Shown here piece after piece: positions 3,821-17,927 of a DNA stretch of 29,195 nt (position 1 is the stretch's first letter; every line of letters begins with the position of its first letter). The translations under genes were made by a program, and so were the position numbers. The stretch is from positions 1 to 29,195 of IMG/VR virus record IMGVR_UViG_3300007514_000050; one strand, 5' to 3'. The DNA comes from a virus. The notes under the pieces are model-generated. The model was not told the DNA's origin. It saw nothing but the letters and a program-made list of their open reading frames with translations, and did not search any database.

Positions 3821-3957
3821 TAAAATTATATGAAATCAGAAGTATTTTCTTAAAATATATTAATGTGCCCGGATTCAGCCCGGTCTAGCCGCGAAAGTGG
3901 GCAAAAAATAATAATTTTACCTCCAGGTGGGTTTGGCCGCGCAACAAAAATTTTTTT

Positions 3958-4003
3958 GGGGTGCGCCCCCGCCCGCGAAACCCCGCACCCGCGCCCGCCC
4001 GCC
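3958..4003 (-). other. G-quadruplex-forming motif in a GC island
   Basis: The plus strand carries C-runs at 3966-3970, 3972-3974, 3981-3984, 3988-3990, 3994-3996 and 3998-4000. The minus strand therefore has six runs of three to five G, separated by loops of 1, 3, 3, 6 and 1 bases, which satisfies the usual G3+N1-7 rule more than once. The stretch also contains a 7-bp inverted repeat, GGGTGCG (3959-3965) and CGCACCC (3984-3990). The surrounding intergenic DNA is strongly AT-rich. Confidence 0.7.
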
Positions 4004-4165
4004 TCGCAAATTTCTGCTGAAGGCGCCCGCGATCCAAAACTCAAAAAAATGGATATAAACGGGATAAAAAGGCTGGATATATTCGCAAGTTTTTTGCGCC
4101 GTATTTCTTAGATTTATACATACAAATCTTAATAACTATCATTGAAGAAGTTTTAATATTCTTCG

Positions 4166-4183
4166 ATATTGGCGCGCGCTAAT
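4166..4183 (+). repeat. 18-bp dispersed element, copy 1 (ATATTGGCGCGCGCTAAT)
   Basis: Exact copy of an 18-base near-palindromic element found four times in noncoding DNA of this window. This one lies 22 bases upstream of the promoter candidate of the 4400 gene. A weaker partial copy (ATTGGCGCTC) follows at 4280. Confidence 0.85.
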
Positions 4184-4205
4184 ATTGAATGAAAAAAGAA
4201 GCCTA

Positions 4206-4234
4206 TATACAAATCAAAAACAGAGGCGTATAAT
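4206..4234 (+). promoter_or_regulatory. Sigma70-like promoter candidate for the 4400 gene
   Basis: TATACA (4206-4211, 4 of 6 matches to the -35 consensus) is followed after exactly 17 bases by a perfect TATAAT (4229-4234). Transcription would start near 4241 and give a leader of about 160 bases with the hairpin at 4302-4347. Confidence 0.5.
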
Positions 4235-4301
4235 TTGTTCTTAATGGGAATTGTTTCTCATTTTTAACCAGCTTAGAAGATTGGCGCTCTTTAAAAACTT
4301 A

Positions 4302-4347
4302 AAACAGAAATTATGCAGAAATGTATATATACTTCTGTTTGTTTTTT
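4302..4347 (+). terminator. Leader hairpin followed by T-run (terminator or attenuator candidate)
   Basis: AAACAGAA (4302-4309) pairs with TTCTGTTT (4333-4340), and six T follow (4342-4347). Inside it, CAGAA (4316-4320) can pair with the same TTCTG (4333-4337) around the palindrome GTATATATAC. Two mutually exclusive folds are therefore possible. It sits about 50 bases before the start codon of the 4400 gene. Confidence 0.4.
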
Positions 4348-4399
4348 AGCGCTGATATTCTAGGCTATTTTTTAACCCTCTAATTAAGGAAGGTGCAAA

Positions 4400-5089
4400 A
4401 TGGCTAAAAACAGCCAACAATCAGAAGAAATATTAACATACACTAAGGCAGAAGAAATTCTAGCCAATACAACAGCCATACGCGAAGCGGGCAAAGCGAA
4501 GCAAAACCACGCCAAAGCCAGCGAAGAAATACAGATTTTTTGCGCTAATATGGCACGCGCAATGCGGTTATTACTTGCTAAAGATAGTAAAGGCAATTTT
4601 AACGACGCAAGGCGCGCCAAAGTCAAAAATGCTTTCCAGCCCTTTTTTGATGATTTATACAATGAATCATTAACTGAAGCGCAGAAGAACGAAAGCAGAG
4701 CAGTGATCGCCGTTCTACGCAGAGCCCTACGCACTGCAACAGATTTAAAGGCAAAATTGGCTGGGCTTTGGGCTGAAGATTATTCTTTAGTTTGCAACAC
4801 TGTAGGAAGCGAAGCGAAGAAGGCGCAATTAGTACAAAAAGCGCACGAATCAGCAGAGCAGAAAGCAGAGCGAATCTCTAAAGAAGAAAAAGAAGCAGAA
4901 GCGAAAAAAGCAAAACGCATTTTCAATTCTGAAATTACTTTTAATGAAGCCGTTCTACATTGGAATTTAGAAGATTTGGCAATTCTTGAAGAAGCATTAA
5001 TAGCCAAATTTGAATTTCAAGAAGCCAAAAAAGAATGGGAATTAGTGAATGGTAAAGTTGTTTTGAAGAAGCAACAGAGAGCCAGTTAA
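4400..5089 (+). CDS. Hypothetical Lys/Glu/Ala-rich helical protein (229 aa), isolated gene
   Basis: I do not recognise this family. The protein is soluble, very rich in Ala, Lys and Glu, and almost wholly helical. A likely coiled coil covers about residues 145-175 (HESAEQKAERISKEEKEAEA), and the conserved-looking ends are YTKAEEILANTTAIREAGKA at the N-terminus and FQEAKKEWELVNGKVVLKKQ at the C-terminus. A good GGAAGGTG ribosome binding site precedes the ATG. The gene stands alone, with its own promoter candidate and a strong terminator right after it. Its codons differ from the neighbours: CGC for Arg and GCG/GCC for Ala are frequent, where the other genes prefer AGA and GCA/GCT. The arrangement resembles a moron-type acquisition or an independently expressed early gene, for example a host take-over or DNA-binding protein; this is inference. 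Confidence 0.85.
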   Translation: MAKNSQQSEEILTYTKAEEILANTTAIREAGKAKQNHAKASEEIQIFCANMARAMRLLLAKDSKGNFNDARRAKVKNAFQPFFDDLYNESLTEAQKNESRAVIAVLRRALRTATDLKAKLAGLWAEDYSLVCNTVGSEAKKAQLVQKAHESAEQKAERISKEEKEAEAKKAKRIFNSEITFNEAVLHWNLEDLAILEEALIAKFEFQEAKKEWELVNGKVVLKKQQRAS

Positions 5090-5107
5090 TATTTCTTCTT
5101 TTAACCT

Positions 5108-5143
5108 AACCCGCTTGAATTGATTTTTGAGCGGGTTTTTTTT
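5108..5143 (+). terminator. Rho-independent terminator of the 4400 gene
   Basis: AACCCGCT (5108-5115) and AGCGGGTT (5130-5137) form a perfect 8-bp stem with a 14-base loop. The stem runs into eight T (5136-5143). It begins 18 bases after the stop codon. Confidence 0.92.
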
Positions 5144-5208
5144 CGCCTTCAATATTTCACACGCAAGCTGCACGCATTTAAAAATTTTTTGACTTTTTTT
5201 TATTCTTA

Positions 5209-5417
5209 ATATTTCCCTGATCTAAAAAGTGTGCGAATGGATAATCAAATTAATATTCGCCAGGACCTGGTCCTAAATATTTCCTGGTCGCGCGTATGGA
5301 TATTGGCGCGCGCTAATCTCAAAAACTTATTTATATTTCCCTGACCAGGCTGGATGAATATGGATATTTCCCTGACCAGGAGGGATTTATATTTTGATCA
5401 ATATTTCCAGGACCTGG
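5209..5417. repeat. Iteron-like array of ATATTTCC and CCAGG/CCTGG boxes
   Basis: The box ATATTTCC occurs five times (5209, 5277, 5333, 5364, 5401). In two copies it belongs to an identical 17-mer, ATATTTCCCTGACCAGG (5333-5349 and 5364-5380, 31 bases apart). GACCAGG occurs on the plus strand at 5343 and 5374 and on the minus strand at 5266-5272 and 5283-5289. The 11-mer CCAGGACCTGG occurs twice (5260-5270, 5407-5417). The 18-bp dispersed element lies in the middle (5300-5317). No gene overlaps. Candidate roles are a replication origin or a multi-site operator for the downstream early operon. Confidence 0.75.
5300..5317 (+). repeat. 18-bp dispersed element, copy 2
   Basis: This is an exact copy of ATATTTGG-type element ATATTGGCGCGCGCTAAT, embedded in the iteron-like array and preceded by the same GG dinucleotide context as the array boxes. 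About 360 bases separate it from the first early gene. Confidence 0.85.
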
Positions 5418-5464
5418 CGCAGATTTTAGGGATAAATACTCAAAAATGGTGGATTTAGACTGAA

Positions 5465-5483
5465 TTGCTTATAAAGTAAGCAA
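5465..5483. repeat. Perfect short hairpin in the early control region
   Basis: TTGCTTA (5465-5471) and TAAGCAA (5477-5483) form a perfect 7-bp stem with a 5-base loop. It lies 63 bases upstream of the -35 box of the early promoter candidate. No T-run follows, so an operator-type site is more likely than a terminator. Confidence 0.5.
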
Positions 5484-5545
5484 CTGCGAAGCCCATATTT
5501 TCGATTTAAGCGTACTTCTAATATAGAGGCATACCTAAGCCAGCC

Positions 5546-5574
5546 TTGACAAAGTGCTTGATTTAAAGGATAAT
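5546..5574 (+). promoter_or_regulatory. Strong sigma70-like early promoter
   Basis: A perfect -35 TTGACA (5546-5551) is separated by 17 bases from GATAAT (5569-5574, 5 of 6). Transcription would begin near 5581, ahead of the rightward early operon that starts at 5660. Copy 3 of the 18-bp element lies in the resulting leader. This is the best host-type promoter in the window. Confidence 0.75.
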
Positions 5575-5614
5575 TGTATTATCAATGGGGAAAAACGTTG
5601 ATTTAGTGTGGGTT

Positions 5615-5632
5615 ATATTGGCGCGCGCTAAT
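5615..5632 (+). repeat. 18-bp dispersed element, copy 3
   Basis: Exact copy of ATATTGGCGCGCGCTAAT, 27 bases before the ATG of the first early gene and about 35 bases downstream of the expected sigma70 start. It could therefore act as a second, phage-specific start or as an operator that blocks early transcription. Confidence 0.85.
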
Positions 5633-5659
5633 TTGTTTAATAATATATAGGTGATATTG

Positions 5660-5920
5660 ATGAAAACTAAATTATCAATTGATTTCAACTATATTGATGA
5701 AGGCTGTTCTTATTTAGTGGCTTTTCATAATGGAACTATTCCATATGTGAAAATAAATAAATCAGCCTTTAAAGATATAGATAAAAAATACACCAAGAAA
5801 ATAAACGGCAGAATTTTCTTGGCGTGTCCGCAATCTGCAAAAGGATTGCTCAACTTTCTGCCAGTCCAATTTGTATATAAAAGAATAGTAACTAAAGATG
5901 CTGTTTCTTTTATTTCTTAG
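5660..5920 (+). CDS. Hypothetical protein, first gene of the early operon (86 aa)
   Basis: I chose the ATG at 5660 because TAGGTGAT lies 5 bases upstream and serves as its ribosome binding site; the in-frame GTG at 5651 is part of that site. The product is a small basic protein (MKTKLSIDFNYIDEGCSYLV at the start) with alternating hydrophobic strands and probably a beta-rich fold. No family is recognised. First-expressed small phage proteins often act on host functions, but nothing in the sequence shows that here. Confidence 0.75.
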   Translation: MKTKLSIDFNYIDEGCSYLVAFHNGTIPYVKINKSAFKDIDKKYTKKINGRIFLACPQSAKGLLNFLPVQFVYKRIVTKDAVSFIS

Positions 5921-5929
5921 GGGATAGAT

Positions 5930-6058
5930 ATGTTAGAGAATATACTTTTGGATATTTTCCTGATCATATGTATTCTGATTGGATTTTCTTGCGCATTCGT
6001 TCCTTTGCTTAAGGATATGAATGACAAAATCAATGATAAATTCGAGGAGGATTTATGA
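5930..6058 (+). CDS. Small single-pass membrane protein (42 aa)
   Basis: The ORF begins MLENILLDIFLIICILIGFS and continues with a short hydrophilic tail KDMNDKINDKFEEDL. Residues 5-27 form one clear membrane helix, and the tail should lie in the cytoplasm. An AGGGGAT ribosome binding site precedes the ATG by 6 bases. The stop overlaps the next start as ATGA, which is the pattern of this whole operon. No family can be assigned to such a short protein. Confidence 0.75.
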   Translation: MLENILLDIFLIICILIGFSCAFVPLLKDMNDKINDKFEEDL

Positions 6059-6285
6059 GTGATATATTGATTGAAGTTCCAACTACTGCACTAATTGATA
6101 AATTTACGGATGGTGCAATAGAAGCCGTAGTATATGTCTACGAGAATGATATGCTAGACATATATCAAGTTGAGGAATTATTGGATTATTTCAGTGTTGG
6201 ATGGTCTGATTTTATCCCTCATTTAACTATAACCGACCACATCACAGAATCTGTGGAATTTATGAAGGAAAATGGATATGATTGA
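6055..6285 (+). CDS. Hypothetical acidic protein (76 aa)
   Basis: The start is fixed by GGAGG seven bases upstream and the ATGA overlap with the preceding gene. The protein is strongly acidic (MSDILIEVPTTALIDKFTDG, then AIEAVVYVYENDMLDIYQVE). It is predicted to be mixed alpha/beta and has no recognisable motif. Its short length and negative charge are typical of phage-encoded inhibitors, but there is no direct evidence for such a role. Confidence 0.8.
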   Translation: MSDILIEVPTTALIDKFTDGAIEAVVYVYENDMLDIYQVEELLDYFSVGWSDFIPHLTITDHITESVEFMKENGYD

Positions 6286-6562
6286 TTATATTGTGTATGG
6301 GATAGTCGATAATGGAGTAATGATATTAGGCGCAATGACTGGACTAGAATTAGAAAGGTTTTTGCCTGATCGTTTCCAGAAAGGATTGGCTACTGTCGTT
6401 GGTGCTGGATTAGGAAACGCCACCAGTGACTTTATGGGCGGTGCAAGTACCTTGTCGTGGGATTTAGCCACTGGTACAGCGCTGGGTTGTTTAATAGGAT
6501 TAGTTTTCATTCCTACTTTGTACTACATTGGGAAACTAAGACGAATATATAAGGATAAGTGA
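6278..6562 (+). CDS. Small membrane protein with Gly/Ala-rich core (94 aa)
   Basis: I prefer the ATG at 6278: AAGGA lies 8 bases upstream, whereas the ATG at 6272 would be only 2 bases from it. The protein has two likely membrane segments, around IVDNGVMILGAMTGLE near the N-terminus and TALGCLIGLVFIPTLYYIGK near the C-terminus. A Gly-rich stretch (VVGAGLGNATSDFMGGAS) lies between them, and the last residues are basic (KLRRIYKDK). The start lies inside the end of the preceding gene. Function is unknown; membrane proteins of this kind are frequent in marine podoviruses. Confidence 0.78.
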   Translation: MIDYIVYGIVDNGVMILGAMTGLELERFLPDRFQKGLATVVGAGLGNATSDFMGGASTLSWDLATGTALGCLIGLVFIPTLYYIGKLRRIYKDK

Positions 6563-7248
6563 TGGAGATAATTGATAATCTAAAACCTATCAATACCCTC
6601 AAGCAAGCATTGGATATAGTGCAAGGAGTATCTTCTCCAGGCAAGATGCCAGTGCCCGCTTATAATCTACCTATAGATGAATGTAGAACTGGTAGAAAAT
6701 TAAGGGTAATGAAGGATAAGAAAGGTCGGATTACTGTCTGCTCTAATTGCTATGCGGGCAAGGGTAACTATAAGAGATATGAAAAGAATATATTACCCGC
6801 CCTCTATAGAAGATTAGAGGCGATAAACAATCCACGCTGGGTAGATGCCTTTGTGTATATACTCACGCATCAGAAACAGATACTCAAACATAAAGTATTT
6901 AGATGGCACGATAGTGGGGATATTCAGAGCCCTGATCATTTGGATAAGATTGTCCAGATTGCAAGGCGCACCCCTCAGATAAAACACTGGTTGCCCACGA
7001 AGGAAGCAAGGGATATAAAGAATTATCCAGGTCCAGTCCCAGAAAATCTAGTGATCAGGCTGAGTGGCACTTTCGTGGATGGACCACCACCAGATTATAT
7101 AAATACATCTGTGGCAACTTCAGATGTGGATAAGGTAACTTGCTTGGCAAGTCTGCCTAAAGAACATCCTAAGAAACAGAAAGGATGTCAAAGTTGTAGG
7201 GAATGTTGGGATGCAACAGTAAAAAATGTTGCATATTTTAATCACTAA
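6562..7248 (+). CDS. GP88-like protein (gene product 88 family)
   Basis: The start is the ATG at 6562, in a TGATG overlap with the preceding stop and 6 bases after AAGGA. The protein shows the pattern I associate with the phage gene product 88 family, which was first named in mycobacteriophages. SPGKMPVPAYNLP is followed by a Cys motif CSNCYAGKGNYKRYEKNILP, a basic helical part, and WHDSGDIQS followed by WLPTKEARDIKNY. Near the C-terminus come CLASLPKEH and the cluster CQSCRECWDATVKNVAYFNH. Five or six Cys residues suggest a bound metal ion or an iron-sulphur cluster. The biochemical role of the family is not known to me. It is the largest gene in this set of small early genes. Confidence 0.8.
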   Translation: MEIIDNLKPINTLKQALDIVQGVSSPGKMPVPAYNLPIDECRTGRKLRVMKDKKGRITVCSNCYAGKGNYKRYEKNILPALYRRLEAINNPRWVDAFVYILTHQKQILKHKVFRWHDSGDIQSPDHLDKIVQIARRTPQIKHWLPTKEARDIKNYPGPVPENLVIRLSGTFVDGPPPDYINTSVATSDVDKVTCLASLPKEHPKKQKGCQSCRECWDATVKNVAYFNH

Positions 7249-7263
7249 TAGTAGGGAGGATAT

Positions 7264-7587
7264 ATGAAACTACTAGAAGTATGTGCAGAGAAGCAGTTGG
7301 AACTCTATAAAAACCAGCAAGGGAAGATAATGACTGTGTCGTTTATCAAGAAGGATGGAAGTATTAGACATCTTAATGGTAGATTTGGCGTAAGTAAGTA
7401 TCTTAAAAGTGGTGAACACCATAACTGGACTCATAGTTATGATAGACACTACCTAACTATATTTGATATGCAAAAATTAGCATATCGAGTAATCAATCTA
7501 AAGACTGTGCTCGCTGTTCAGGCTGAAGGTAATAGATACCTGATCATAGACCATATCAAGGAATGGATAGGGGGTATTGGAAGATGA
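7264..7587 (+). CDS. SH3 beta-barrel-like phage protein (107 aa)
   Basis: The segment KIMTVSFIKKDGSIRHLNGRFGVSKYLK, followed later by DRHYLTIFDMQKLAYRVINL, is the pattern of a small phage family usually annotated as SH3 beta-barrel fold-containing protein: V-F-x-K-x-D-G, R-x-G-V-x-K-Y-L and F-D-x-x-x-x-x-Y-R-x-I-N-L. The biological role of that family is unknown. GGGAGG lies 6 bases before the ATG. The end overlaps the next gene by ATGA. Confidence 0.75.
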   Translation: MKLLEVCAEKQLELYKNQQGKIMTVSFIKKDGSIRHLNGRFGVSKYLKSGEHHNWTHSYDRHYLTIFDMQKLAYRVINLKTVLAVQAEGNRYLIIDHIKEWIGGIGR

Positions 7588-7853
7588 GAAAATCACAAAC
7601 TAAACTGTATTGCTTACGTCTTGATGGATATGAGGTACGTAAGTTTAATGATATACTTGAAGACTTCCTTATAGTCTTTAACTCAAATGAATCTCTGTCT
7701 TCAGACTTTCAGAATACCTATGCCTTTCTCACTGCAAGAGAGAGAGATTGGAATGCTGAGATTTGGGAGCAGAGAATGTCGATAAAGGCACTCGCTGATA
7801 TTGAAGAACAGATGAAAATGGAGCGAGAATATATGGATGAGGTGAAACAATGA
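7584..7853 (+). CDS. Hypothetical protein (89 aa)
   Basis: I choose the ATG at 7584, which overlaps the preceding stop as ATGA and follows AGGGGG at 9 bases; an earlier ATG at 7563 lacks spacing from any ribosome binding site. The protein is charged and likely helical in its second half (REREYMDEVKQ-type ending, with WNAEIWEQRM before it). The first part, KLYCLRLDGYEVRKFNDILE, could be two strands and a helix. No family is recognised. Confidence 0.72.
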   Translation: MRKSQTKLYCLRLDGYEVRKFNDILEDFLIVFNSNESLSSDFQNTYAFLTARERDWNAEIWEQRMSIKALADIEEQMKMEREYMDEVKQ

Positions 7854-8035
7854 GTTTAGATTATAGTGATATATATGAACTCGGAGTTGAATCTGATTGC
7901 TGTGGTGCTAGTGTTGTATGGGTAGATTTATGTACCGAATGTAAAGAACACTGCACCCCAGTGGATTTAGAAGAAAGAGAACTAATGGATGATTACAGAG
8001 ATGCTGGTATGAGTCCAGGAGATTTCTTTAGATAG
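7850..8035 (+). CDS. Small Cys-rich, probable zinc-binding protein (61 aa)
   Basis: An ATGA overlap and a GAGGTG ribosome binding site define the start. The segment ESDCCGASVVWVDLCTECKEHC has the layout of a small zinc ribbon: a CC pair, eleven to twelve residues later a CxxC, then a third Cys. The rest is acidic (DLEERELMDDYRDAGMSPGD). Small zinc-ribbon proteins of this type recur in phage early regions with unknown targets. It is immediately upstream of the methyltransferase (9 bases). Confidence 0.75.
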   Translation: MSLDYSDIYELGVESDCCGASVVWVDLCTECKEHCTPVDLEERELMDDYRDAGMSPGDFFR

Positions 8036-8044
8036 GAGTAATAT

Positions 8045-9169
8045 ATGAATGTATTAAGTTTGTTTGATGGTTCAAGCTGTGGACAGGTAGCGCTTGAGCG
8101 TGCTGGTATCCAAGTGGATAACTACTTTGCATCAGAGATAGACAAATGGGCAGAGAAGATAGCACTAAAGAACTACCCTAACACTATACATATAGGACCA
8201 GTTGAATTTGTCAGTGCTAGACAACTGCCAGATATTGACCTGATCTTAGCGGGCTCACCCTGTCAGGGATTTAGTTTTTCTGGTAAGGGATTAGCGTTTG
8301 ATGACCCCAGGTCCGCACTATTCTTTGAGTTTGTGAGGCTACTGGATGAGTGTCGTAAGTTTAATCCAGATGTCAAATTCTTACTGGAAAATGTGAGGAT
8401 GAAGCAAGAGTACCAAGATGTGATAAGTAAATATCTAGGTGTCCAACCTATCGCCATCAACTCAAGTCTGATGAGCGCACAAAATAGATACAGATTGTAT
8501 TGGTGCAACTGGGATGTGGAACAACCAGATGATCAGGGAATACTCCTAAAGGATATACTCTTAGAAGGAGTAGGTGATAGTGTAAGGAATCAAGGCACTA
8601 AGGTGATGAAGACTGGTATAGATAAGGCTCACTGTCTACTGGCTAGGGATTACAAGGGATTCGGCAATCAAGATATGACTGGCGTGAGAACTTGTGAACT
8701 CAGAGAGTATGACGAGAGTGAGGAGTGTCATCATATTGGCACGGCCCTGGATATAAATGGGCACGACATACTTAAGCGTGTCTATTCGGATACAGGTAAG
8801 AGTCCTACCCTCAATAGTATGGGTGGAGGTAATCGAGAGCCCAAAGTATTAGTGGCTAGGATGGTAGGAAGAAGGATAAATCCTTTCACAGGCAAGAGGG
8901 ATGACTATAATATGGACATCAAACCTAAGCAAAGACTTGAGCCGAGAAAGGATAATAAGAGTGGTTGTCTAACGACTGTGGATAAGGACAACCTAGTGGT
9001 AGAGAAAGGAACATACAGACCTCTACTACCCATCGAGATGGAACGACTACAGACTTTGCCCGACAATTATACTGAGGGTGTGAGTAATACTCAGCGTAAG
9101 AAAATGTTAGGCAATGGATGGACAGTCAATATAATCTCACATATTCTAAAGCAAGGAGAACTGGTATGA
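8045..9169 (+). CDS. DNA cytosine-5 methyltransferase, orphan
   Basis: The 374-residue protein shows the ordered motifs of the C5 family (Pfam DNA_methylase). Motif I is LFDGSSCGQVAL, which binds S-adenosylmethionine. Motif IV is GSPCQGFS with catalytic C73. Motif VI is ENV (115-117), motif VIII QNRYR (146-150), motif IX RLQTLPDNYT, and motif X GNGWTV (356-361). Residues of roughly 170-320 between VIII and IX form the target recognition domain, so the site cannot be read from sequence by eye. GGAGT precedes the ATG. No restriction endonuclease gene is adjacent, so it is an orphan enzyme, most simply for self-protection against host restriction. The strong GATC context bias of this genome (see findings) makes its specificity worth measuring. 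Confidence 0.93.
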   Translation: MNVLSLFDGSSCGQVALERAGIQVDNYFASEIDKWAEKIALKNYPNTIHIGPVEFVSARQLPDIDLILAGSPCQGFSFSGKGLAFDDPRSALFFEFVRLLDECRKFNPDVKFLLENVRMKQEYQDVISKYLGVQPIAINSSLMSAQNRYRLYWCNWDVEQPDDQGILLKDILLEGVGDSVRNQGTKVMKTGIDKAHCLLARDYKGFGNQDMTGVRTCELREYDESEECHHIGTALDINGHDILKRVYSDTGKSPTLNSMGGGNREPKVLVARMVGRRINPFTGKRDDYNMDIKPKQRLEPRKDNKSGCLTTVDKDNLVVEKGTYRPLLPIEMERLQTLPDNYTEGVSNTQRKKMLGNGWTVNIISHILKQGELV

Positions 9170-9399
9170 ATATAAAATTATTATTAGAAGATATAGAATT
9201 AACACCACATACTTGGATAAGTTTGTATAGTGACTTGGCTAATTTTGTTCTTGAGCACTCATCACTGGACCCGATATGGACAGAGGATGAGAATGGTGAC
9301 GAGGTTATGACTGAGGAAAAACAAGATGAGTTCTGTTATATTGTTGATGAAGTTGAGCGTATAATGGAAGCTAATGGATTAGTCAAGGGGAATGATTGA
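9166..9399 (+). CDS. Hypothetical acidic protein (77 aa)
   Basis: The start at 9166 overlaps the methyltransferase stop as ATGA and follows AGGAG by 7 bases; the longer frame from 9118 lies wholly inside the methyltransferase and has no ribosome site. The protein begins MNIKLLLEDIELTPHTWISL and is acidic and mostly helical, ending EVERIMEANGLVKGND. No family recognised. Coupling to the methyltransferase suggests co-expression only. Confidence 0.75.
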   Translation: MNIKLLLEDIELTPHTWISLYSDLANFVLEHSSLDPIWTEDENGDEVMTEEKQDEFCYIVDEVERIMEANGLVKGND

Positions 9400-9638
9400 T
9401 GGCTTACAATAAGAAAAAAGATAAGAAGTACAGAGTCATACAGGGATTTACAATGTACCCACCATACTTAGATGGTCGTGTTGATGGGGATATAGCGTAT
9501 GATAGGTATGGTAACTGGATGAGTTACGAAGACAGAACCAAGATGTACCAAAGAAAGAAGAAAGAAAGGGAGGATTGGCGTAAGAACAATCCTAATATTA
9601 TAAATAAGCGTGATGATATCACGGAGGATGATGTATGA
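9399..9638 (+). CDS. Hypothetical basic protein (79 aa)
   Basis: The ATG at 9399 overlaps the preceding stop as TGATG and follows AAGGGGA at 8 bases. The protein starts MAYNKKKDKKYRVIQGFTMY, has an aromatic middle (PPYLDGRVDGDIAYDRYGNW) and a highly charged helix (KMYQRKKKEREDWRKNNPN). It is rich in Tyr and Lys. I do not recognise a family. Confidence 0.75.
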   Translation: MAYNKKKDKKYRVIQGFTMYPPYLDGRVDGDIAYDRYGNWMSYEDRTKMYQRKKKEREDWRKNNPNIINKRDDITEDDV

Positions 9639-9952
9639 AAGAGTATAATGTGCAAGTATGCCTAGTCCAGGAGTCTAACTTTGATGTAACAGTTGAAGCG
9701 GAATCTGAGGATGAGGCACAAGACCTGGTTACAGATCAGGTATGGAGTGATGAGCTACATCGAGAGATAAGATGTACTAATGAGATTGTTTCTGAGGATT
9801 ACACTGTCGAAGAAGTACCTTATGATTTTGACATCTATGATGCTAACGATGAATGGCTTGACACAATGTATGAACAGTACACTGCGACTGGAGCACTAGA
9901 AGAATACAATTCAATGGGGCTCGGCATAGGTGACTACGCTGAAAGGAGGTAA
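9635..9952 (+). CDS. Hypothetical very acidic protein (105 aa)
   Basis: The start is set by GGAGG and an ATGA overlap. The first 50 residues (VQVCLVQESNFDVTVEAESE, then DEAQDLVTDQV) have the strand-helix pattern of small ferredoxin-like phage domains in which a V-x-V-E-A-x-S-E-D-E-A segment leads into a helix. The remainder is dominated by Asp and Glu. Such charge is typical of DNA-mimic inhibitors of restriction or RNA polymerase, but that is speculation without structure. Confidence 0.78.
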   Translation: MKEYNVQVCLVQESNFDVTVEAESEDEAQDLVTDQVWSDELHREIRCTNEIVSEDYTVEEVPYDFDIYDANDEWLDTMYEQYTATGALEEYNSMGLGIGDYAERR

Positions 9953-9954
9953 GT

Positions 9955-10137
9955 ATGGGTAAGATGTCAGACATACATATAGGATTGCGAGAAGCAGGCA
10001 TTGATCCGGAAGATGAGGATGCAGTGATGCAGTATATGATGGATTATGCTATGCAATATATGTCAACTGAGGAGTATCTGAAAGAGCACATCGCTCAAGA
10101 AAAATTAATTTCAGAAAACAACCCCAGAGGACACTAA
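9955..10137 (+). CDS. Hypothetical small acidic protein (60 aa), last gene of the first early block
   Basis: AAAGGAGGT, the strongest ribosome binding site in the block, lies just before the ATG at 9955. The product is short and Met-rich, with helical segments (IGLREAGIDPEDEDAVMQYM and STEEYLKEHIAQEKLIS). No family recognised. A 250-base noncoding stretch with large hairpins follows. Confidence 0.72.
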   Translation: MGKMSDIHIGLREAGIDPEDEDAVMQYMMDYAMQYMSTEEYLKEHIAQEKLISENNPRGH

Positions 10138-10160
10138 AAGTATGCTATAATTTTCACCTT

Positions 10161-10225
10161 ACTAAGAAAGTCTAGGTTATTTATATATATATTAGTATTA
10201 GTATAAATTCCTAGACAGTCTTAGT
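10161..10225. repeat. Long imperfect hairpin, arm 16 bp
   Basis: ACTAAGAAAGTCTAGG (10161-10176) pairs with CCTAGACAGTCTTAGT (10210-10225) with two mismatches in 16, around a 33-base AT-rich loop. No T-run follows, so it is not an ordinary terminator. It lies between the small-gene block and the replication module. Confidence 0.7.
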
Positions 10226-10239
10226 TAGTCTTAGTCTTA

Positions 10240-10288
10240 CTAAGAGTACACTGGTTTTTTCCTTCCTTATTTTCCAGTGTACCCTTAG
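10240..10288. repeat. Strong hairpin, 15-bp arms with one mismatch
   Basis: CTAAGAGTACACTGG (10240-10254) pairs with CCAGTGTACCCTTAG (10274-10288); only one of the 15 positions is mismatched. The 19-base loop is nearly all pyrimidine and starts with six T. The right arm is not followed by T, so possible roles are an RNase III-type processing site, a transcription pause or an origin structure. Confidence 0.75.
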
Positions 10289-10318
10289 TGGGATTAACCA
10301 CTAGATTGGCGTATTCCA

Positions 10319-10336
10319 ATATTGGCGTGCGCTAAT
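10319..10336 (+). repeat. 18-bp dispersed element, copy 4 (one base changed)
   Basis: ATATTGGCGTGCGCTAAT differs from the other three copies by one C to T change. A partial copy (ATTGGCGT) lies just upstream at 10305. Downstream, GACC-TTCG-GGTC (10344-10355) would form a stable UUCG hairpin near the 5' end of any RNA starting at the element. The SSB gene begins 51 bases after the element. Confidence 0.82.
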
Positions 10337-10387: not shown

Positions 10388-10771
10388 ATGAGTGCTATGA
10401 CTTTAGCTGGTACTGTGGTTTTTAACCACGTTACACAACCCGATGTATATAAGGGTACGGAGAAATATTCTTTGACAGTTAGTTTGGATAAGAGTAGTAA
10501 GAAACTTGCTGAGAAACTAGGTCTTAAGACTACTGAGTATGATGGCAACACGCAGATTACTATGAAACGTAAGGTAGACTTTGGACAGCCTAAGGTTTAC
10601 AACGCTGACAAAGAGGAGGTAGGTGTTAGTCATCTCTCTCTCTTTGGAGATGAGGTAACTGTCAAGGTTAAGCAAGGTAAGGGAGACTATGATGCTTACA
10701 CATACCTGGAAGCAATCAGAGTCGAGGCAAAGGCAGAGGGTGTGGAAGATGGAGACCCATCTGACTTTTAA
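10388..10771 (+). CDS. Single-stranded DNA-binding protein, T7 gp2.5-like
   Basis: I place the start at the ATG 10388, preceded by AAGGAG at 7-8 bases; this gives 127 residues. The body is beta-rich with alternating hydrophobic and charged residues (YSLTVSLDKSSKKL; HLSLFGDEVTVKVKQGKGDY), as in an OB fold. The C-terminus EGVEDGDPSDF is acidic and ends in Phe, which is the hallmark of the T7 gp2.5 group, where this tail touches the polymerase and helicase. It protects and organises single strands during replication and recombination. The gene is the first of the replication module, directly upstream of the primase-helicase. Confidence 0.83.
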   Translation: MSAMTLAGTVVFNHVTQPDVYKGTEKYSLTVSLDKSSKKLAEKLGLKTTEYDGNTQITMKRKVDFGQPKVYNADKEEVGVSHLSLFGDEVTVKVKQGKGDYDAYTYLEAIRVEAKAEGVEDGDPSDF

Positions 10772-10840: not shown

Positions 10841-12490
10841 ATGGAAAATAAATTGCTCTATAAGGAGCAATGTCCGAGCTGTGCAGCCAGTGGTGGTGAC
10901 ACAAGTAAAGACAATATGGCTGTCTATTCAGATGGTCAGACACACTGCTTTGCTTGTGGTGAGCACGGACATACTAAGCATCCACCAGGTCCATACTATA
11001 ATAAGGATAATAGTGAGGACAAGGACTGGGTAGCAGAGTATAGAGGTGAGTTCTACAGCCTACCTGATCGTAAACTTCGAGCTGAAACCTTAGAGAAGTA
11101 CAAGGTAAAGGCAGAGAAGGATGACAAAGGCAATATCATAAAGCATCACTACCCTTTCCATAATAAGAAGGGTGTGATGGTTGGTATAAAAACTAGATTA
11201 GTAGCCAACAAGAAGTTCTTTAGTGCTGGGGATACTAGGAAAACAAACGCTCTGTTCGGTCAGAATTTGTTTAAGCCTGGAGGAAAGTTTGTTACCCTGT
11301 GTGAAGGTGAGTTGGATGCTATGGCAGCTTATGAAATGTTTGGTTCTAAGTGGGCGTGTGTTAGTGTACCTAATGGTGTGAATTGTGTGGCTAATATCAA
11401 GGCTAATCTTGAGTGGCTGGATTCATTTGAAACAGTAGTAATATGTTTTGATAATGATGTAGCTGGTCGAGAGGCTGCTAAATTAGTTGCACCCATACTA
11501 GGTCCTAACAAATGTAAGATACTCACACTAGCAAAACATAAGGATGCAAATGATTACCTTGTCAACAACGACAGTAAGGCATTTTATGATGAGTGGTGGA
11601 ATGATGCGAAGCCATTTATAGTATCTGGTGTTGCAACTATAGAGGATATGCGTAGTGCTATGCTCCAATATAAAGACACAGAACTAATACCTTTGCCCGA
11701 TTCATTTGGTAATCTAAACGAGATGATGAGAGGCGGTGTAGCAAGAGGTGAATTAGTGTCTGTGATTGCACACACATCTATAGGTAAGACAACTATACTC
11801 AACGAGTTAATCTATCACTTCGCTGTTAATACTAAAGAGAAGATAGGTTGTTTTATGGTTGAGGATAATATAGATGAGACGATCAGGAAGGTAGTGAGTG
11901 TGCATACTGGTGAGAATATGCAACTGCTCAAGCCTACTGACTTGAATGTTGATAAGATTATGGATGAAGCAGTAGAAATAGGATTTGCATCTAAGATACA
12001 GCTACACAACGATGGTGGTGGTAGTGTGGACCTGGAAGAAATGTTTGCTAAGATTAGGTACTTCATTAAAGGAGTTGGATGTACTGTGATATTAGTGGAC
12101 CCACTACACACAGCCATTAAGAATCTATCTAATGAGAACATCGAAGAAGTTATGGATAGATTTATCAAGTTATGTAAAGAGACCAAGGCTACTGTGATAC
12201 TGAGTACGCATACCAGGAAGCCTGACGATGGCTCTCATCCACATAAGATATGTGAGTATGATGTTAAAGGTAGTGGAGCAATACCACAAGCCTGTCATAC
12301 TAACATACTATTCTCAAGAGATAAGCTGGCTGAGGATGATTACGAGAGGAACTCTACTAGGATTCGTGTGCCGAAACTTAGGCGCACTGGTCAGACTGGT
12401 GAGGGTGGATGGACATACTTCAATGGTGTTACTGGAAGACTAGAGAAGGGACATAAGCCTAGCTTAGGGGATGATGATGCGGACTTTTAG
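10841..12490 (+). CDS. Primase-helicase, T7 gp4-like
   Basis: The 549-residue protein has all parts of the T7 gp4 architecture. An N-terminal zinc-binding domain carries C11xxC14 and C36xxC39. The TOPRIM primase core has CEGELDAMA (E155) and ICFDNDVAG (D204, D206). A RecA-like helicase of the DnaB type has Walker A AHTSIGKTT (310-318), Walker B VILVDPLHT (about 416-424) and STHTRKP (about 455-461). The C-terminus GDDDADF is acidic and ends in Phe, as in T7 gp4, where it binds the polymerase. It unwinds the fork and makes RNA primers. The end of the gene overlaps the polymerase start; the repeated GAT codons of the acidic tail provide the ATG starts of the polymerase gene. GGGAGG precedes its own ATG. 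Confidence 0.96.
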   Translation: MENKLLYKEQCPSCAASGGDTSKDNMAVYSDGQTHCFACGEHGHTKHPPGPYYNKDNSEDKDWVAEYRGEFYSLPDRKLRAETLEKYKVKAEKDDKGNIIKHHYPFHNKKGVMVGIKTRLVANKKFFSAGDTRKTNALFGQNLFKPGGKFVTLCEGELDAMAAYEMFGSKWACVSVPNGVNCVANIKANLEWLDSFETVVICFDNDVAGREAAKLVAPILGPNKCKILTLAKHKDANDYLVNNDSKAFYDEWWNDAKPFIVSGVATIEDMRSAMLQYKDTELIPLPDSFGNLNEMMRGGVARGELVSVIAHTSIGKTTILNELIYHFAVNTKEKIGCFMVEDNIDETIRKVVSVHTGENMQLLKPTDLNVDKIMDEAVEIGFASKIQLHNDGGGSVDLEEMFAKIRYFIKGVGCTVILVDPLHTAIKNLSNENIEEVMDRFIKLCKETKATVILSTHTRKPDDGSHPHKICEYDVKGSGAIPQACHTNILFSRDKLAEDDYERNSTRIRVPKLRRTGQTGEGGWTYFNGVTGRLEKGHKPSLGDDDADF

Positions 12491-14216
12491 TTGCGACATA
12501 GAAACTGACGGCATTGAAGCAACCAAGGTGTGGTGTATTGCTGTGCATAACATAAACACAGACCAGTGCATCACATTTGCTGGGCCTTGTCTAAATCTAT
12601 TTAAACCTTGGCTTGAATCAGAAGCTGACTGCCTGATCTTTCACAATGGTATATCATTTGATGTTCCAGTATTAGAAAGACTATTAGATGTTGACTTCTC
12701 TAATATAAAGATAGAGGATACATTAGTTCTTAGCCAACTATACAAACCAAGGCTTGATGGAGGTCATTCTCTGTCAGCCTGGGGAGATAGACTTGACTAT
12801 GAGAAAGGAGACCATACTGATTGGTCACAGTTTAGTGAAGAAATGATGAGGTACTGTATAAGAGATGCTAAGTTGACAACTAAACTTTATAAGTATTTAT
12901 CACATCAAGGTTTAAACAATTATAGGTTGAGTAAAGATGCCACACAACTAGAGTATGCAATAAAAAAGCACTGCTCTATGCAAGAAAGAAATGGATGGTA
13001 TTTTAATTTACAAGGTGCTATGAAATTACTGCAAGAAATCAATGAAGACTTGAGACTAGCAGAAGTAGAGGTACATAAGACATTCGTTCCACTGCCAGTG
13101 TGGAAGTCTAAGAAACCAGTAGCAAATAGATTTACTAAGGATGGTAAGAGAACTAAACACTATCAGACAGAGGTAGAGCTTGAATGTCATACTAATGAGA
13201 AAGGTGAGTATGGATATTGGACATACCCAGAACTTAATCTAGGTAGTAGACAACAAGTTGGTAGACACTTAATACATTATGGATGGAAACCTACGGTATT
13301 TACTGATGCTGGACAACCAAAGGTGGATGAGTCTACACTTAAAGATGTTGACATACCTGAAGCTAAGATTATAGCTAGATATCTGATGTTACAGAAACGC
13401 CAGGGCCAAGTAAGTAGTTGGGTTGACGAGTACAACTATGATACTGGTAGAATACATAGCAGAGTACACACTATGGGCACTGTCACACATCGTATGTCCA
13501 GTAGTAACCCGAACTTACAGCAAGTTACTGCAAGTAACAAGGAGTACGGTAGTGAAATGCGTAGCCTGTTCACTGTTCCAGAGGATAAAGTAATAGTAGG
13601 TGCTGACCTATCTGGATTAGAATTAAGATGCCTCGCACACTATATGAAAGATGATAGTTATACAGAAGAAATATTAAGTGGTGATATACACACAGCCAAT
13701 CAGAAGGCAGCGGGTTTGAAGACAAGGGATGAATCAAAGCGTTTCATCTATGCCTACCTTTATGGAGGGGGAGATGCCCTGATCGGTAAGATATGTGGTG
13801 GTGGTATGGCACTAGGTAAAAAGATTAAAGAACAATTTTTATCTAATACACCAGCACTAGCCGTACTTAGAAAAAGAATTGAACACGCATCGAAGAAGGG
13901 TTGGATTAAAGCACTTGATGGTCGCAAGGTATATGTGCGTAGCCCACACTCGGCACTAAATTTTCTATTACAAAGCGCGGGTGCAATAATTGCTAAGAGA
14001 GCCTGGGAAATATTCCACATTCTTGCAGATGACTATGAGTACAAACAACTTGGTGTCATACACGATGAGATACAGATTGAATGTGACCCAGCAATTGCGG
14101 ATGAGATTGGTAGCCTGGTTGTTGAGGCTATGGAACAGACAACAGATTATTACAAACTAAACTGTCCAATAACTGGGGAGTATAAGATAGGGAGGAGTTG
14201 GAATGAAACACACTGA
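12477..14216 (+). CDS. Family A DNA polymerase with 3'-5' exonuclease (T7 gp5-like)
   Basis: Three in-frame ATGs lie in a row (12471, 12474, 12477). AGGGG at 12466-12470 gives best spacing (6 bases) to the last, so I take 579 residues. Counting from 12471, the exonuclease begins with DIETDG (9-14). The polymerase domain has motif A VGADLSGLELR (about 376-386), motif B RDESKRFIYAYLYGGG (about 418-433) and motif C VIHDEIQIE (about 528-536). The residue equivalent to E. coli F762 and T7 Y526 is Tyr, as in T7. The protein is shorter than T7 gp5 (704 residues). No thioredoxin-binding insertion can be pointed to. It replicates the phage genome together with the adjacent helicase and SSB. Confidence 0.96.
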   Translation: MRTFSCDIETDGIEATKVWCIAVHNINTDQCITFAGPCLNLFKPWLESEADCLIFHNGISFDVPVLERLLDVDFSNIKIEDTLVLSQLYKPRLDGGHSLSAWGDRLDYEKGDHTDWSQFSEEMMRYCIRDAKLTTKLYKYLSHQGLNNYRLSKDATQLEYAIKKHCSMQERNGWYFNLQGAMKLLQEINEDLRLAEVEVHKTFVPLPVWKSKKPVANRFTKDGKRTKHYQTEVELECHTNEKGEYGYWTYPELNLGSRQQVGRHLIHYGWKPTVFTDAGQPKVDESTLKDVDIPEAKIIARYLMLQKRQGQVSSWVDEYNYDTGRIHSRVHTMGTVTHRMSSSNPNLQQVTASNKEYGSEMRSLFTVPEDKVIVGADLSGLELRCLAHYMKDDSYTEEILSGDIHTANQKAAGLKTRDESKRFIYAYLYGGGDALIGKICGGGMALGKKIKEQFLSNTPALAVLRKRIEHASKKGWIKALDGRKVYVRSPHSALNFLLQSAGAIIAKRAWEIFHILADDYEYKQLGVIHDEIQIECDPAIADEIGSLVVEAMEQTTDYYKLNCPITGEYKIGRSWNETH

Positions 14217-17811: not shown

Positions 17812-17927
17812 GAATACTTGAAGGTATTTTCTATACAATATATTTCATAGCTGGAGTAGTAACTGCAAGTTGTCTGGTCTATATTGTTATGTGGCTTGAG
17901 GCTTTGAGAAAAGGATGGTTAGTATGA
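17808..17927 (+). CDS. Tiny membrane protein (39 aa)
   Basis: The ORF starts by an ATGA overlap with the lipoprotein gene and ends with another into the next gene. The protein begins MRILEGIFYTIYFIAGVVTA and continues with SCLVYIVMWLE. Nearly all of residues 5-30 are hydrophobic, which predicts one membrane helix with a short basic tail (LRKGWLV). It may belong to a lysis group with its neighbours, but there is no family match I can name. Confidence 0.68.
   Translation: MRILEGIFYTIYFIAGVVTASCLVYIVMWLEALRKGWLV

Follow-up and report, generated by a model that had tools for sequence, protein, structure and literature searches.

What reads the four copies of an 18-bp near-palindrome that lie ahead of rightward genes in a marine virus genome? 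The DNA in question comes from an uncultured tailed phage and is only part of its genome; the IMG/VR-type virus record that holds it is classed as ‘linear’ (IMGVR_UViG_3300007514_000050; the whole stretch of 29,195 nucleotides (nt) is called the window below). It carries a rightward early/replication block with leftward late genes on both sides. The element, ATATTGGCGCGCGCTAAT, occurs three times without change and a fourth time with one C to T change, always in noncoding DNA and in the same orientation (positions in Table 1). No other place in the 29,195 bases matches it with up to 3 mismatches, the 16-base core is likewise found at these four places only, and reverse-strand matches are the same four near-palindromes. 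As 100 dinucleotide shuffles gave zero matches at the same threshold, the chance expectation is none. A TTG open reading frame starting at 10322 overlaps the fourth copy, but it is spurious because ssb begins at 10388. The core ATTGGCGCGCGCTAAT consists of inverted half-sites ATTRGCG flanking CG. Its symmetry is near-perfect: a single asymmetric pair (G opposite T) is found across the 14 central bases. A preliminary description had listed these copies, two partial copies (both reading ATTGGCG) and the near-palindromy, all of which hold, and it had left the choice between phage RNA polymerase promoters and operators of a dimeric regulator. Judging from sequence comparison, we think that the element is probably the operator of a phage regulator encoded by the adjacent gene at 4400–5089 (gene 1), which would tune rightward early and middle genes by repression or by blocking elongation.

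Relatives were collected by an exact motif scan of viral contigs and by searches with PolA and TerS, which gave about 100 contigs. The motif was found at matching places in L126/L025 (four copies), L060/L034, L096/L032, L111/L012 and L098/L023. Among the PolA and TerS relatives it was present only in contigs that also hold a homologue of gene 1; the remaining PolA relatives have neither the exact motif nor the homologue, with TerS, methyltransferase, SSB, primase and PolA mostly 70–90% identical to those of the window. These motif-less relatives carry a gene of another family at the gene-1 place, and a different near-palindrome in its leader and in the 5’ untranslated region (UTR) of gene 2. 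Over the about 100 related sites studied, each phage bearing gene 1 has its own palindrome of 16–17 bp, usually in 3–5 copies. The gene at this place belongs to one of three protein families (A, B or C, the window’s being C) or is a fourth, singleton gene (L128). Families were defined by BLAST alone, and the singleton was admitted by its position and palindrome. The palindromes are TTCGGAAnnnTTCCGAG, TCGTAACGYGTTACGA, TTGTAACGYGTTACAG, CTCCGAAGTCCTCGGAG and CTCGTATYGGATACGAA in family A; ACGCAwTTwAwTGCGT, AAGCATTTAATTGCTT and GCACTwCTTGwAGTGT in family B; ATTRGCGYGCGCYAAT and AATTRGCGNCGCYAATT in family C; and GATTAACCCGGTTAATT for the singleton. The preliminary description had regarded a lack of conservation in related phages as speaking against its reading. 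What is conserved across the families is the arrangement, with other sequences; the exact sequence is kept only in phages of family C.

The search for repeated palindromes was run blind to genes and was later extended to further genomes. A repeated palindrome was detected in 32 of 32 contigs with a member of a gene-1 family compared to 2 of 20 without one (p = 4e-12), and in the latter two the palindromes sit in other contexts. Shuffled sequences yielded 1 in 156. As a control for circularity the most palindromic 16–17-mer before gene 2 was picked blind and sought in gene-1 leaders, allowing up to 2 mismatches: it was present in the genome’s own leader in 23 of 28 cases, but in the leaders of other genomes in only 42 of 756 comparisons. 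Gene-1 proteins have about 180–320 amino acids and change fast (mean distance about 0.6 vs 0.11 for TerS). In the three families the distance between sites correlates with the distance between gene-1 proteins (r = 0.80, 0.85 and 0.72; p = 0.0002, 0.02 and 0.02); the corresponding values for TerS distance are 0.12, -0.12 and 0.25 and not significant. Since contigs inside a family are related, these p values overstate the independent events, and the number of distinct gene-1/palindrome specificities, at least ten in otherwise similar genomes, is the safer measure. Chance or a general abundance of palindromes was rejected as an explanation by six isolates (HTVC103P, HTVC115P, HTVC010P, HTVC024P, HTVC100P and Greip; whole or partial genomes), in which we found 0–2 scattered palindrome pairs and no comparable set.

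The motif is found exactly in those phages that hold a gene-1 homologue of the matching family, and the two change together, as suits an operator for a dimeric regulator. Because of this co-variation we infer that the gene-1 protein binds the element. Most likely it is a sequence-specific DNA-binding regulator, probably dimeric, with the element as its operator; binder, dimer state and sign of regulation are all inferred.

The linkage could also have arisen differently. The leader, gene 1 and the gene-2 UTR adjoin one another in some 2 kb, which lets one recombination event move all of them, and gene 1 might merely travel on the same DNA block as sites bound by another factor of the host or the phage. 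We regard this as improbable. Sites at a distance of 3–12 kb (ssb, exonuclease, methyltransferase, DUF350 gene) mostly have the same sequence, the methyltransferase and gene 2 do not track the motif, and a phage would need no site of its own for a host factor. Two individual candidates were rejected: gene 2 as the co-varying factor, as it differs inside family C where the motif is constant, and methylation by the C5 methyltransferase as determinant of the GCGCGC core, as the enzyme is 72–93% identical across very different motifs.

The places where sites recur across phages are the gene-1 leader, the next operon’s 5’ UTR, and the stretches before ssb, the methyltransferase, the exonuclease or a DUF350 gene. 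Of the family B sites, two are in the gene-1 leader (in L132 and L108 they flank the predicted promoter), a third is in the gene-2 5’ UTR, a fourth precedes ssb, and a fifth precedes a DUF350-type gene homologous to the one at 17915 in the window. In family A they are found in the leader, in the gene-2 UTR, in the gap between a stop codon and the ribosome binding site (RBS) of the methyltransferase gene, and between the polA stop codon and the exonuclease RBS. Whole contigs of 33–48 kb have 4–5 sites each, all in the rightward early/middle region, and no site at late genes. 

All window copies share one orientation ahead of rightward genes, which led the preliminary description to consider promoters of a phage RNA polymerase. 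The single-subunit polymerase gene which it suggested seeking in relatives was not detected: PF00940 gave no match in seven related contigs of 32–48 kb, with a working control (HTVC019P, E = 4e-106), the window itself being a fragment. On this ground such promoters were rejected. Furthermore, the element is a dyad, and its orientation is not the same from one position or genome to another; sigma-70-type promoters are predicted close by and at the same places in relatives, and the family A copies lie inside operons, in the gap that separates a stop codon from the RBS after it. Promoters in the wider sense, including those at which a phage factor redirects the host RNA polymerase, are thus very improbable.

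Regarding the nature of the recognized molecule, the dyad symmetry reaches the centre and fades past 8 bp, with inverted half-sites in every family. Exact reverse-complement copies are found inside single genomes (L026/L029, L027, L043); sites are flipped in L060 too, and likewise when L071 is compared with L076. Inverted half-sites that are independent of orientation are what the sequence of a dimeric operator should look like, and since exact reverse-complement copies exist within single genomes, it is double-stranded DNA that appears to be recognized. The alternative is an RNA hairpin in leaders and between genes which is bound by the gene-1 product, either as a translational operator or as an antitermination site similar to boxB/nut. 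Most sites outside the leader lie 20–40 nt ahead of an RBS; at pairs 5 and 8 of the sense strand G.U wobbles outnumber A.C; the family A sites upstream of the methyltransferase lie within a longer RNA-like stem; at ssb the site takes the place of a UNCG hairpin present in some relatives; and a boxA-like GCGCTCTTTA is found at 4284. However, reverse-complement copies in one genome would alter the loop, symmetry extends into would-be loop positions, and copies 1 and 2 fall outside the predicted transcripts. Due to the reverse-complement copies in relatives and the two window copies outside predicted transcripts, recognition as DNA seems about four times likelier, and we consider the hairpin unlikely.

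Some further structures were noticed. The boxA-like (antitermination) stretch in the gene-1 leader, GCGCTCTTTAAAAA at 4284–4297, overlaps a half-site and is conserved in L025 and L034. The ssb leader (10162–10303) folds into nested hairpins that all relatives retain, whether they have gene 1 or not, with changes on both sides at 15 of 34 consensus pairs and no match in Rfam; it is a candidate for a structured leader RNA (or an origin). In L094 and L095, phages without gene 1, TTCG-loop hairpins (taGAGGCATTTTTCGAAGTGCCTCta) with ACTCTTT after them recur about 820–1630 from the TerS start; in family A the site ahead of the methyltransferase is borne on a similar stem.

If gene 1 encodes the regulator, its product would bind the ATTRGCG dyad, probably as a dimer. 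Binding at copy 1, near its own promoter, would result in autoregulation; at copies 2 and 3 it would occur on the two sides of the early-operon promoter, with copy 2 upstream and copy 3 about 35–50 nt downstream of the predicted sigma-70 promoter, and at copy 4 in the leader of the ssb/replication operon. The bound regulator could in this way tune the rightward early and middle genes. Several sites are found downstream of promoters, or just ahead of an RBS in promoter-free gaps between genes, so repression or an elongation block of the host RNA polymerase would be the likeliest action.

Several observations weigh against this interpretation. Gene 1 has no family match in Pfam, PHROG or PDB sequences and no recognizable DNA-binding domain, and fold searches with two gene-1 models gave no match at E ≤ 0.001. 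Confidence of the models is only moderate: the window protein (pLDDT 78) comes out as helices plus two beta hairpins, and the model for family A is poorer (71). All promoters are predictions, and the promoter-like total of the region does not exceed that of shuffles. Most sites are located 20–40 nt ahead of a start codon, and the sense strand has more G.U than A.C at two pairs, both of which would suit an RNA hairpin. Finally, specificities are mixed in a few genomes: the site upstream of the methyltransferase is TTCGGAAnnnTTCCGAG at L123 3543 (early region), L031 5383 and L150 5447, while the remaining sites are TCGTAACGYGTTACGA. Such mixtures are expected if, once the gene-1 block has been exchanged, the sites switch individually, and L123/L031 and L150 apparently represent an unfinished change of specificity.

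Table 1. Proposed operator copies and neighboring features in the window.
Feature	Position	Strand	Remarks
Predicted leftward late promoter	3825..3853	-	TTAAGA-17-TATAAT; better match there in family A, TTGACT-16-TATAAT
Copy 1 of proposed operator	4166..4183	+	Unchanged; 5’ of gene 1, at about -58 to -75 relative to predicted P1 start; position matched in L126, L096, L111, L098, one-mismatch copy in L060
P1, predicted sigma-70-type promoter of gene 1	4206..4234	+	TATACA-17-TATAAT, consensus match only; -10 conserved in family C
Half-site ATTGGCG	4280..4286	+	Gene-1 leader; kept as TTGGCGCTCTTTA in L025 and L034
Gene 1, 229 amino acids, proposed DNA-binding regulator, family C	4400..5089	+	Co-occurrence and co-variation with operator
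Intrinsic terminator 3’ of gene 1	5108..5137	+	12-pair stem, then T run; one at same place in relatives
Copy 2 of proposed operator	5300..5317	+	Unchanged; between gene-1 terminator and P2; also in L126/L025
P2, predicted sigma-70-type promoter of early operon	5546..5574	+	TTGACA-17-GATAAT, 11/12; similar one at same place in relatives
Copy 3 of proposed operator	5615..5632	+	Unchanged; early-operon 5’ UTR, about +34 to +51 from predicted start
Gene 2, first early-operon gene	5660..5920	+	
Half-site ATTGGCG	10305..10311	+	Adjoins copy 4
Copy 4 of proposed operator	10319..10336	+	One C to T change; leader of ssb/replication operon; position matched in L025, L034, L032; another sequence there in family B
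ssb (gp2.5-like), first gene 3’ of copy 4	10388..10771	+	

Several known phage systems resemble this arrangement in part. In lambdoid immunity regions, cI and Cro act with OL and OR: there, as probably here, a regulator gene lies at a divergent early/late junction, palindromic operators are located at its own and at early promoters, and all are exchanged as a block. Here, however, no cI-like or helix-turn-helix protein is recognized, sites are also present inside operons far from promoters, and no lysogeny genes were found. Lambdoid N with nut/boxB likewise pairs phage-specific sites early in operons with a phage-specific first-gene protein, but boxB acts as RNA, whereas the reverse-complement copies and those outside predicted transcripts point to DNA here; other copies do lie in leaders. 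Promoters of single-subunit RNA polymerases (T7, HTVC019P type) are repeated noncoding motifs before gene blocks too; in our case no such polymerase was found, and the motif is symmetric and flippable. In Cluster A mycobacteriophages each phage has its own motif which tracks its repressor, with the sites mostly in one orientation (PMC6550527). The stoperators of L5, Bxb1 and Trixie (PMC6550527, PMC9283540) share with our element that a short noncoding motif is phage-specific, repeated mostly in one orientation and tracks the regulator. They differ in being asymmetric sites, suited to a monomer, in up to about 30 copies, for a helix-turn-helix repressor of temperate phages. Here we found dyads with inverted half-sites in every family, 3–5 per genome, and gene-1 families without a helix-turn-helix repressor homologue, unrelated to known repressors and to one another (profile comparison of A and B is weak, E 0.002 and probability 12%; no match between others). 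For the integrase PF00589, a search of ten related contigs, in which the controls did match, gave nothing; it did not extend to serine integrases or to partition genes. Cluster A stoperators are the closest working analogue; because of the dyad sites, the protein unrelated to known families and the failure to find an integrase, the window system is not a member.

Most likely a gene and all its landing sites changed together, as in the immunity switches of temperate phages, though no integrase was found. Coupled changes of a regulator and its scattered operators are known mainly from temperate phages, where they are explained by lysogenic immunity. Here they are seen in uncultured marine phages, with three families without recognized domain and at least ten specificities. 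What is new is the candidate regulator, together with coupled changes of specificity that have happened repeatedly in related phages. We tentatively suggest that apparently lytic, podovirus-like marine phages might carry interchangeable immunity-like modules, in which regulators of undescribed families each have their own set of early/middle operators. A resident regulator would then shut down only a superinfecting phage of the same specificity, and competition would drive the switching. Superinfection immunity in a lytic phage is possible, and mutual exclusion of lytic phages by repressor-like specificity becomes directly testable. In addition, the evolution of DNA-binding specificity could be studied on the protein/site pairs of these families, which form a natural set.

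The early/replication block of the window encodes a C5 methyltransferase, a gp2.5-like SSB, a primase-helicase (primase assigned by homology), PolA, a Cas4-type exonuclease, ribonucleotide reductase and RusA. The genome is mosaic: TerL (1519–2808) is nearest to HTVC010P-type pelagiphages (52–54%) and PolA (12471–14216) to the HTVC103P type (42%). Marine phages related to HTVC103P by their polymerase have been described from metagenomes, their host not being known (PMC8528129). Neither a relative in the bacterial genome contigs searched for a host nor gene 1 in isolated phages was found. Upstream of TerS all relatives share a conserved AAAAATAATAATTTTACC block followed by GC-rich sequence (3905–4080 in the window), a possible packaging site or genome end; many contigs end 160–620 bp from TerS. 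Between 5194 and 5420 seven CCWGG sites are found in about 160 bp, a dense cluster given 49 in the entire window. They lie inside the repeats TATTTCCCTGACCAGG and CCAGGACCTGG, and similar repeats are present in L025, L034 and L032.

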